DNA of 64,000 bases, taken from assembly GCA_018713335.1 (NCBI GenBank), contig DVOW01000032.1, positions 1-64,000 on the forward strand, in the 5' to 3' direction. The notes beneath the pieces were generated by a model. It worked only from the letters and a program-made list of their open reading frames with translations, made no database searches and was not told the origin of the DNA. The position numbers and the translations under genes were made by a program. This document shows, one piece after another, positions 29,900-45,602 of this stretch. The first letter of the stretch is position 1. Every line of letters starts with the position of its first letter. The DNA comes from Candidatus Merdivicinus intestinigallinarum (GTDB lineage Bacteria > Bacillota > Clostridia > Oscillospirales > Ruminococcaceae).

Positions 29900-29975
29900 C
29901 GTCTGGCAATTTATATAAGGGTTTATGCTTTGCTAACGCAAATGCACCGCAGATAAAATTTTAGGAGATTCTAAA

Positions 29976-30162
29976 CCGCCATTTTGCAAGCAAAATGGCG
30001 GTGGCGGGTCATCGCCAGGCGCTCTGCGGAGCGCCTTTTTTCTTGATAGTTCGCGCCCGGGGCGCGAAAAGATTGGATTTCGCCCATTGCGATGGGCGAC
30101 CAAAGGCGTTGCCTTTGGAAACCACAAGCTTTTGAAAAAGCTTGACCAAAACTTTTTATTTT
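29976..30162. repeat. Intergenic hairpin array A
   Basis: Six or seven consecutive perfect stem-loops at 29976-30001, 30002-30017, 30018-30035 (+T6), 30050-30068, 30080-30099, 30100-30118, 30125-30144, ending ACCAAAACTTTTTATTTT. Confidence 0.8.
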
Positions 30163-42234: not shown

Positions 42235-43326
42235 GTGAAAAAAGAACAGCTATTGATCCAGCTGTATCAGGAAGAACAGCGGCCGGCTGTGGTGTTTGAC
42301 AGCGGCCTGCGGGTGATATGGATGAACAGTGCCTGCATCCAGCGGTTCCCGTCCATTGTGGAGGAAGCAAGCCTTCAGGACTTTTTTCCGGGGCTGAAAT
42401 TTGAGGAGCTGGCCGCCGGGCAGCCTGCGCCGTCCCGGGTTTTGCAGGACCCGGAAGGCGGGGGACAGATGACAGTGACCGCGTATCCCGGCGAGCCTTG
42501 CTTATTTGCAGGCGTCTGGCAGGACGGTACGTCCTTTTGTCCGGGGCGGGACGGCATCGGGCCGGAAGGGGTCCAGCTGATGGACGCCTGGATCCGCCAG
42601 AACGTGTTCCGGATCTTTAATAATCTGGACCAGCTGGGGGAATATCTGGAACGGGCCAACGTCCCCCAGGGGGAGGAGAACCTGGGGCGGATCGAAAGGC
42701 ACTGCCAGCAGCTCCTGCGGCTGGGCCTTGTCCTGTCCGGCTGCTATGGGCCGGAGGAAAGCAGCGTCCCGGCCCCGGTGGATATGGAGCAGCTTCTGGA
42801 GCAGCTTTTCCGGGATGTAGATTTCCGCCTTGCCCCTTTGGGGATTTTCTTAGAACGGAAGGGCCATTGCCGGGGGGCGGTGTGTATGCTGGACCGGCGG
42901 CAGTTTGTCAGCGCCCTTCTCTGCCTCATCGACCTGTCCGCGGGCCAGATGGAAAAGGGCGGCGTGATGCGGGTGGAGCTTTCCAAAACCCAGAGGGAAT
43001 TTCAGCTGAGCTTTTCGGACAGCACCACTTCCTTTTCCGCCATTGCCCGGCAGAAAGGGGAGATTTCCGCCGAGGAGGGGATGATTGCCGAAAACGGCGG
43101 CTTTTCCCGGCTGGCGGCGGCGTTTCTGGAACGGGTTGTGCGGGAAAGCGGCGGCCAGTGCATGATGGCCGACGGGAAACCCGGCATTCGGGTCACCCTC
43201 CGTCTGCCGCTGACCTTTTCGGAGCAGCCGCCCGCCGTATTCGACCAGCCGGCCTACACGGTCCGGTACCGGCGGCAGGCGCGTTCCAGCCTGGTGAGCA
43301 TCATCCTCTCCGACTTGCCCCGGTAA
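42235..43326 (+). CDS. PAS/HATPase-like sensor protein lacking recognisable kinase motifs
   Basis: PAS-like N-terminus (RPAVVFDSGLRVIWMNSACIQRFPSI). C-terminal RVTLRLPL end of a HATPase fold, but no H-box or canonical N/G boxes. Confidence 0.5.
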   Translation: MKKEQLLIQLYQEEQRPAVVFDSGLRVIWMNSACIQRFPSIVEEASLQDFFPGLKFEELAAGQPAPSRVLQDPEGGGQMTVTAYPGEPCLFAGVWQDGTSFCPGRDGIGPEGVQLMDAWIRQNVFRIFNNLDQLGEYLERANVPQGEENLGRIERHCQQLLRLGLVLSGCYGPEESSVPAPVDMEQLLEQLFRDVDFRLAPLGIFLERKGHCRGAVCMLDRRQFVSALLCLIDLSAGQMEKGGVMRVELSKTQREFQLSFSDSTTSFSAIARQKGEISAEEGMIAENGGFSRLAAAFLERVVRESGGQCMMADGKPGIRVTLRLPLTFSEQPPAVFDQPAYTVRYRRQARSSLVSIILSDLPR

Positions 43327-43418
43327 TCCGGCGGGGAAGCCCCGCGGCTAATCCGACGCGGCCGCACAGCCTCACACCAACCGCTGGAACGGCGAAAATG
43401 TTCGCCGTATGGGAAGGT
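43324..43418 (+). repeat. About 100-bp inverted repeat, left copy
   Basis: TAATCCGGCGGGGAAGCCCCGC..TAATCCGACGCGG..CGCTGGAACGGCgaaaatgtTCGCCGTATGGGAAGGT. Matches the reverse complement of 44134-44234. Confidence 0.75.
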
Positions 43419-43465
43419 GTTGGTTCCTTACGCACGGTTTATAAACTGTTTTATAGAAAAGATTA

Positions 43466-43722
43466 CAGGGACGCCCGGAAAGGGCGTCCCTGCGGTTTTG
43501 ATGAGATTTATTTTTCCGTTTTTCTGAAAGGTACCGACGTTAAATATTTGGGGAACCCCTTGATAGGGTTCCCCACGGTGGAACAGTCCACCGGACTGTT
43601 CCACCTCCCTTCCTGATTTTTTTATCATAAAGATTTCGCTCGTTGCGACGAGCGAGAAGGGACTCCGTCCCCTTCACCCCTGCCACCTTTTAAAAAAGGT
43701 GGACCAAAATTTTTATGATTTT
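43466..43722. repeat. Intergenic hairpin array B
   Basis: Stem-loops at 43466-43492 (11 bp), 43550-43574 (9 bp), 43577-43605 (13 bp), 43636-43655, 43656-43675, 43683-43702, ending ACCAAAATTTTTATGATTTT. Confidence 0.8.
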
Positions 43723-43812
43723 GACGCAATTTGCATCGTTTTTCTGCTTCAGCAGAAAATTTTGCTATGATAAAATACGGGGTGCAATTTTTTATGAAAA
43801 GGCAGGGATTCT

Positions 43813-44040
43813 GTGTATTACAGGCGAATTAAAGAATTACGGGAAGATCAGGACATCAAACAAAGAGAAATCAGCGAGGCTCTTTCCATTACGCAGAAAT
43901 GCTACGCGAATTATGAAAACGGCCACCGGGGGATCCCCACGGAGATTTTGTGCCAGCTGGCGGATTACCATCACACCTCCGTGGATTACCTGCTGGGGCG
44001 GACAGACAAAAAAGAACCGTACCCGCCTGCCAAACGCTGA
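43813..44040 (+). CDS. Small XRE-family HTH protein
   Basis: YRRIKELREDQDIKQREISEALSITQKCYANYENGHRGIPTEILCQLADYHHTSVDYLLGRTD. Confidence 0.85.
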   Translation: MYYRRIKELREDQDIKQREISEALSITQKCYANYENGHRGIPTEILCQLADYHHTSVDYLLGRTDKKEPYPPAKR

Positions 44041-44133
44041 AAACAGGGAGAAAATTGCAGGGGACGATGCCCAGATTTAACGCCCCCTGCAAAGTTTGTT
44101 TTCGTTTGATTTCCCAAAACGATAGGAAATAAA

Positions 44134-44234
44134 ACCTTCCCATACGGCGAGTTTATCGAGCCGTCCAGCGGGCGGATAGGAAATGAAACACCGCGTCGAA
44201 TTAACAGCGGGGTTACCCCGCCCGCGGCGGATTA
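44134..44234 (-). repeat. About 100-bp inverted repeat, right copy
   Basis: Minus strand TAATCCGCCGCGGGCGGGGTAACCCCGC..TTAATTCGACGCGG..CGCTGGACGGCtcgataaacTCGCCGTATGGGAAGGT. The terminal 17 bp are identical to the left copy. Confidence 0.75.
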
Positions 44235-45602
44235 GCCGCCGTATTTTTTAGAGAGCATTTCCACCATCATATGGGCGCATTTGTTCACGTCCCCGCAGCC
44301 CAGGGTGATAATCAAATCGCCGGGCTCCGCGTGCTCCACCACATAACCGGCGATTTCCGGGAATTCCGGGAACCAGACGCAGCCGGGGATCTTCTCCGCC
44401 AAATCTTTGGCGTAAATGTTCCAGGTGTTCTTTTCCCGGGACCCCATGATCTCCGACAGCACCACCCGGTCGGCAATGGACAGGGCCTTGGCGAAATCGT
44501 CCAAAAGCATGGCCGTCCGGGAGTAGGTGAAGGGCTGGTGCACCGCCCAGACCCGTTTAAAGGGCAGCTTTTTGGCGGCGGTTAAGGTTGCGGTGATTTC
44601 GGTGGGATGGTGGCCGTAGTCGTCCGCCACAGTAATGCCGCCGAATTTCCCCAGCACCTCGAACCGGCGCTGGGCCCCGTGGAACGCGTCCAATCCCTTG
44701 GCGCACTGCTCCCATCTGGCCCCGGCTTCATGGGCTGCAATGCAGGCGGCAATGGCGTTTAAGATGTTGTGGTCCCCGGGAACATGGAGCCGGATGGGAG
44801 TAAGGATCTCCGAATCCCGGCAAAGGTCAAAGGAGATGGTGACCCCGTCCACATGCTCGATGTTGGCGGGATAATAGTCGTTAATAGAGGCGTATCCAAA
44901 GGTAATAATCCGCCTATCCAAATCTTTCAATGCCTTCAGAGTGTTTTGGTCGTCCCCGTTGGCGATGACCGCCCGGGTGGCCATGGAAGCGAATTTGTGG
45001 AAGGAGGCAATGAGGTTTTCCATGGTTTTGAAGTAGTCCAGATGGTCGGCGTCAATGTTCAAAATCACGGCAATATCCGGGTGCAGCTTCAAAAAGGTGT
45101 CCACAAATTCGCAGGCTTCGCAGACCATGGTGCCGCTTTTGCCGATGCGGCCGCCGCCGTGGATGGCCGGCAGCTTGCCGCCGATGACGCAGGTGGGGTC
45201 TAAGCCCGCGTCCAGCAGGATCTGGGTGGTCATGGAGGAGGTGGTGGTTTTGCCGTGGGTGCCGCTGACGCAGATGGCCGCCGGGTACCAGGCGGAAATC
45301 TCCCCTAACAGGACGCTGCGCTCAATGGTGGGCACGCCGCTTGCCCGGGCGGCGATCAATTCGGGATTGTCGTCCATAATGGCGGCGGTGTGGACGATCA
45401 GGTCCGCCCCCTCAATGTTCTCCGCCTTCTGGCCCAGGGTGACGGGGATGCCCATTTCCCGGACCATTTGCAGGGTGTCGGTTTCGTTGTTGTCGGAACC
45501 GGTCAGGTAATAGCCCTTTCCGTGCAGAATCTGGGCCAGCGGGAACATGCCGGACCCGCCGATGCCGATAAAATGGATATGTTTTTTATTCTCAAGAAGC
45601 AT
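44232..45602 (-). CDS. murC: UDP-N-acetylmuramate--L-alanine ligase
   Basis: HIHFIGIGGSGMFPLAQIL, AICVSGTHGKTTTSSM, VADDYGHHPTEI. Confidence 0.95.
   Translation of the reverse strand: MLLENKKHIHFIGIGGSGMFPLAQILHGKGYYLTGSDNNETDTLQMVREMGIPVTLGQKAENIEGADLIVHTAAIMDDNPELIAARASGVPTIERSVLLGEISAWYPAAICVSGTHGKTTTSSMTTQILLDAGLDPTCVIGGKLPAIHGGGRIGKSGTMVCEACEFVDTFLKLHPDIAVILNIDADHLDYFKTMENLIASFHKFASMATRAVIANGDDQNTLKALKDLDRRIITFGYASINDYYPANIEHVDGVTISFDLCRDSEILTPIRLHVPGDHNILNAIAACIAAHEAGARWEQCAKGLDAFHGAQRRFEVLGKFGGITVADDYGHHPTEITATLTAAKKLPFKRVWAVHQPFTYSRTAMLLDDFAKALSIADRVVLSEIMGSREKNTWNIYAKDLAEKIPGCVWFPEFPEIAGYVVEHAEPGDLIITLGCGDVNKCAHMMVEMLSKKYGG

Follow-up and report, generated by a model that had tools for sequence, protein, structure and literature searches.

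The inverted repeat and its contents

The window analyzed here, a stretch of 64,000 nucleotides from Candidatus Merdivicinus intestinigallinarum, contains two convergent genes that are each followed by one arm of an inverted repeat of about 100 bp. The question raised by this locus is what the two arms are. The first-pass annotation of the sequence had offered three possibilities, namely, a non-autonomous mobile element with long terminal inverted repeats, a structured 3'-UTR family, and a duplicated convergent 3'-end element. The features of the locus are given below, in which each arm is called a unit and G004 is a related genome.

43324-43418, plus strand: left unit, beginning at the TAA stop (43324-43326) of the 42235 gene
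43324..43330, plus strand: TAATCCG, the TAA stop of the 42235 gene together with the start of the left unit
43331..43345, plus strand: stop-proximal hairpin of the left unit, GCGGGG-AAG-CCCCGC
43346..43361, plus strand: linker of the left unit, GGCTAATCCGACGCGG, in which GCT is complementary to loop AG plus arm C
43362..43380, plus strand: variable loop of the left unit, type a (CCGCACAGCCTCACACCAA), flanked by conserved GCGG and CCGC
43389..43408, plus strand: second hairpin of the left unit, ACGGCGAAAATGTTCGCCGT, with AACGGCAAGATAAACTTGCCGTT in its place in G004
43409..43440, plus strand: tail of the left unit, starting ATGGGAAGGTGTTGGTTCC; the covariance-model match spans 43348-43437
43455..43740, plus strand: hairpin array B, a separate dispersed repeat family lying between the units
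43813..44040, plus strand: XRE-type HTH gene between the units (product: HTH_3 protein)
44115..44204, minus strand: core of the right unit (covariance-model match)
44134-44234, minus strand: right unit, beginning at the murC TAA stop (44232-44234)
44144..44164, minus strand: second hairpin of the right unit, ACGGCTCGATAAACTCGCCGT
44207..44221, minus strand: hairpin of the right unit, GCGGGG-TAA-CCCCGC
44222..44241, minus strand: first linker of the right unit, GGCTAATCCGCCGCGG, fused to the last codons of murC including its TAA stop

The inverted repeat at two convergent TAA stops, as originally proposed, was confirmed by these coordinates and by a gapped alignment of the left and right units over their whole length, which required several small gaps. 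In a repeat search, the arms were detected as two inverted pairs (27 nt at 89% and 21 nt at 90%). The identity of the last 17 bp in both arms also held, as the window contains just two occurrences of the 17-mer TCGCCGTATGGGAAGGT, at 43402(+) and 44134(-), with a chance expectation of 0.17 matches when 3 mismatches were tolerated. The arms enclose the XRE-type gene as described, and small XRE-like genes with 33-51% identity to it were found near units at loci L040, L126, L127, and L165; such genes near units occur in other loci and species. Array B had 32 matches in its own genome and is itself a dispersed repeat family. Elsewhere in the window, a row of five perfect hairpins with differing stems (29975-30118) showed no sequence kinship to the unit.

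Copy number and distribution of the unit

When a genome-wide search was conducted, as the first-pass annotation had recommended, the left unit as a BLAST query gave 47 matches in its own genome, about 40 of them below 1e-6. A covariance model built from 23 copies gave 125 matches in the same 2.76-Mb genome (G000), of which 108 had E<0.01. The unit was neither absent elsewhere nor unconserved; it was present in 7 of 7 searched Candidatus Merdivicinus (Oscillospiraceae) species, its own included, with 1-101 copies each, where membership in the genus follows the label supplied with each genome. Copy number is high in G000 and G004 and low in G001 and G003. The genus name derives from chicken-gut metagenomes, and the compared genomes seem to be draft metagenome assemblies, some contigs of which terminate at units. 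Outside the genus, weak covariance-model matches were obtained in only two genomes among 34 other genera, and the linker word AATTCGACGCGG was at background level in 60 genomes from other genera of the family. The units had no match among phages, plasmids, or viral contigs, both window units scored under the gathering score of every family in Rfam 15, and no description of these repeats was found in the literature. A gathering search of eight unit-bearing loci returned only a THF riboswitch (RF01831, 97.7 bits), located at L098:151-254 in the same genome.

The arms are individual copies of a dispersed, high-copy unit that is restricted to the genus and almost always intergenic. Most copies are single. 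Among the 108 matches, 21 adjacent pairs were found; 9 of these were inverted, and adjacent inverted copies always faced each other (9 vs. 0).

Modular anatomy of the unit

The unit reads from 5' to 3' as a stop codon, one to several modules of a hairpin and a linker ending in TCGACGCGG, a variable loop, CCGCTGGA, a second hairpin, and a tail. The conserved blocks TCGACGCGG and CCGCTGGA stand in fixed order and part three variable segments. The first, the stop-proximal hairpin, uses few stem types (..CGGCG, CCCGG, CGGGG, CAGGT, and TCCGG) and few triloops. The second, the variable loop, lies between GCGG and CCGC, is followed by TGGA, and is of type a, as in the left unit, or type b (CGTTTCAATTCCTATCCAA). 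The third is the second hairpin, with the pattern CGGC..GCCG, followed by TATGGGAAGG and an AT-richer tail. The linker is not constant but alternates between GACG and GCCG, and a constant terminal tag on the module was rejected on this ground.

Moreover, the loop of a module matches its own linker. The two final bases of the loop, taken together with the base that opens the 3' arm, were complementary to the linker in 163 of 190 modules, compared with a mean of 33 and a maximum of 49 in 2000 shuffles; since module alleles are related by descent, the shuffles overstate independence, and the result is stronger as few alleles all obeying one rule than as 190 independent events. The loop/linker pairs found were GG/CC, AT/AT, AA/TT, GC/GC, AC/GT, and AG/CT. 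Two functional readings of this pairing were rejected. The alternative hairpin of a bistable RNA switch would be less stable than the main one by 7-11 kcal/mol, and a loop-linker pseudoknot seems sterically cramped by our reasoning, with only about 1 nt crossing the stem. Among the stems, 177 were perfect and 32 had one mismatch, some of these by chance, and the mismatches, small in number, showed no excess of G.U over A.C.

Several variants were observed alongside these modules. A module type CCAGGT-TAC-ACCTGG followed by AGGAA was seen at C2:85538-89227, at C42:3438, and in copies of G003 and G005; its stem varies between species (CCAGCT..AGCTGG and CCGGCT..AGCCGG), while loop and linker are constant. 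Some second hairpins at L017, L022, L025, and L026 carry an extra hairpin inside the stem or loop, for example, the nested palindromes of GGCTCGACTTCGCAAGCAAGCTTGCGGAAGCTCGCC. A second hairpin family, tagged TTGTAGGGG and with variable stems (e.g., GGGCCGGGTTTCCCGGCCC and GGGCGCGCATTGCGCGCCC), lies downstream of many units. These hairpins (L001-L030 and G004 loci) often stand beside modules of opposite orientation and resemble GTAG-tagged REPs; they are a different repeat from the units, and the window itself contains none.

Position at gene 3' ends and stop codons

With gene positions taken from our own simple gene caller, 2 of 106 copies overlapped a called gene. A gene 3' end was located on the upstream side of 76 copies, and only 6 lay between divergent genes. 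The first-pass annotation had asked whether copies abut stop codons, and many do: 33 of the 73 copies with a measurable gap started -24 to +28 nt from a stop, compared with 9.3 expected and a simulated maximum of 23 under uniform placement. In the junctions inspected directly, the hairpin begins right at the stop codon, and the C-termini of familiar proteins at such junctions, AsnRS, CarB, and HIT among them, are presumably native, judging from our knowledge of these families. TAG made up 51% of stops with an adjoining hairpin vs. 14% of other stops, and its G often doubles as the first stem base. TA as a target site was considered and rejected; copies distant from stop codons do not have the TA that stands before the hairpin at TAG stops. 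The early suggestion of a structured 3'-UTR family or convergent 3'-end element fits this placement downstream of genes, often at the stop codon itself.

Hairpins that directly follow stops, often between convergent genes, are also what ordinary intrinsic terminators of the upstream genes would look like. However, the stems of the units run into a GC-rich linker (TCGACGCGG, TATGGGAAGG) or TATGGG, with no T run, and this reading was judged very unlikely. A T-tailed terminator-like hairpin is located farther downstream of the left unit, at 43466-43492.

The window locus in a related species

In G004, the flanks of the orthologous locus are approximately 92% identical and the left unit occupies the same position. 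The alignment of 171 bases showed only a few substitutions at the end of the gene and a different second hairpin, which reads GCGAAAATGTTCGC in one of the two genomes and CAAGATAAACTTG in the other. The murC end of G004 has no unit and the stop is TGA; the region beyond was not alignable, and no target duplication was found there. The XRE gene is absent from the G004 locus, where array B has 81% identity and the reverse orientation. Since G004 has the left unit without the right unit or the XRE gene, and with array B turned around, it was concluded that the arms were not acquired as one block.

These results bear directly on the proposed mobile element, a MITE with the window arms as terminal inverted repeats and the XRE gene and array B as cargo. 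Such an element would explain the inverted arms on either side of a small gene missing from G004, but G004 has the left arm without the right arm or that gene, array B is a separate repeat family, and no target duplication was seen. Moreover, copies are mostly single, and the 9 facing pairs vary in content and spacing. The MITE reading is therefore extremely improbable. Rather, the arms are inverted because two convergent genes each bear one copy of the dispersed family.

Exchange of hairpins at orthologous sites

The change of the second hairpin between otherwise similar left units recurred at other loci. The G004 regions of 63 copies with both flanks located were examined, and 28 orthologous unit pairs (G000 vs. 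G004) were parsed. Conserved blocks were 93-94% identical, and identity below 75% was found for the stop-proximal hairpin in 15 pairs, the loop in 10, and the second hairpin in 11, in varying combinations. Clean cases of single-segment replacement were C26:43348, C42:3438, C27:48189, and C59:62706. By our own count, the two species had different hairpins at roughly 12 of 22 stop codons that bear one in each. Thus, about half of the orthologous hairpins were exchanged, independently of adjacent segments. At one locus, three species have different leading modules and second hairpins at the same stop codon, and G003 and G006 differ in the modules found at one gene end. Chimeric assembly is an unlikely source of these differences, since the exact stretches shared between copies are short. 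Clean insertion junctions were sought in the 63 orthologous regions, and none was found among those inspected because these regions have other hairpins in the second species.

The hairpins might alternatively belong to a selected structured 3'-UTR RNA, that is, ancient gene parts whose transcripts fold and whose stems, selected for pairing, drift through compensatory mutations. Modules recur at the same gene ends across two or three species, the flanking blocks of the left arm are nearly unchanged between species despite a diverged adjacent gene, stems are almost always perfect, and loops match linkers, all of which such an RNA would predict. However, copy number ranges from 1 to 101 per species within one genus, the murC unit is missing in G004, no G.U excess marks an RNA strand (small numbers), and loop-linker pairing, as an alternative fold, falls short of the main hairpin by 7-11 kcal/mol. 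As hairpins change whole, with few mismatched intermediates and, in small numbers, no G.U excess, replacement of modules is favored over stepwise compensation. Consequently, the structured-RNA reading was considered rather unlikely.

Proposed explanation

The arms are probably copies of a REP/BIME-like 3'-end repeat whose hairpins are replaced whole by module exchange; how the exchange and the placement at stops occur is an inference from the patterns described above. Hairpin segments may be swapped whole by short-tract recombination or by replication template switching between copies, for which the conserved blocks could serve as short homology, and stepwise compensatory mutation would not be the route of hairpin change. 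Copies would persist because the 3' side of a gene tolerates them, and the inverted pair in the window would amount to two convergent genes with one copy each. If transcribed, the units could act as 3'-UTR hairpins that shield the mRNA 3' end or influence ribosome release, as reported for stop-proximal E. coli REPs.

In the search for a means of movement, PF01797 (RAYT/Y1 transposase) had no match in G000, which is 98% complete, and a full match only in G005; accordingly, RAYT-driven mobility was rejected. Among traces of movement, no clean empty site or target duplication was identified. As a counterpoint to module exchange, modules of this kind recur at several gene ends across two or three species, and this could also mean old, selected 3'-UTR structures. 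A further possibility, on balance doubtful, is a genus-specific dedicated process that both inserts and exchanges whole modules (stem, loop, and loop-matching linker) at stop-anchored gene 3' ends. The loop-linker complementarity would then be the recognition or copying signature of a recombinase, an enzyme handling single-stranded DNA, or template switching.

Comparison with known repeat systems

Short, non-coding, dispersed, foldable repeats that affect gene 3' regions include MITEs such as RUP, NEMIS/Correia, and similar elements. The units share these properties but differ in that single copies lack bounding terminal inverted repeats and no target duplication was found. CGTC-tagged palindromic repeats, known from Proteobacteria, Chlorobi, Bacteroidetes, Spirochaetes, and Thermotogae (PMC3733652), are likewise palindromic, located at 3' ends, without a known dedicated transposase, and divided into subsets with different stems and loops (PMC3733652). 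In contrast, the tag of the units is not constant (GACG or GCCG in the linker), and their stem, loop, and tail patterns are unlike those described.

The closest comparison is with the REP/BIME repeats of Enterobacteria and Pseudomonas, in which GTAG-tagged REPs are associated with RAYT transposases (PMC2817692, PMC3733652, PMC3116915) and a share of REPs lies within 15 nt of stop codons (PMC12306157). Both are high-copy, extragenic, and palindromic, form clustered mosaics and facing pairs, and lie mostly downstream of genes and in part near stop codons (PMC3733652, PMC12306157). The units show the high-copy extragenic palindromes (108 matches, 2 of 106 overlapping genes, and tandem and facing arrays) and the downstream placement (76 of 106), and they work like REP in position and dispersal. 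However, a conserved palindrome with an unpaired GTAG or CGTC tag was not found, as there are several stem types and the linker carries GACG or GCCG, and the genome yielded no Y1/RAYT gene. Lacking both the tagged palindrome and RAYT, the units were therefore not filed as REP. Further differences from REP/BIME are the constant linkers, the few stem types, the loop complementary to its own linker, and the swapping of orthologous hairpins.

Whole-hairpin replacement at orthologous sites makes the change and spread of palindromes without an obvious transposase testable by sequencing. Moreover, the exact placement at stop codons provides dozens of natural cases for studying hairpin effects on translation termination and mRNA 3' ends. 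The usual definition of a REP-like repeat rests on a conserved palindrome; in the present family, the linkers stay constant and it is the palindromes that can be exchanged.
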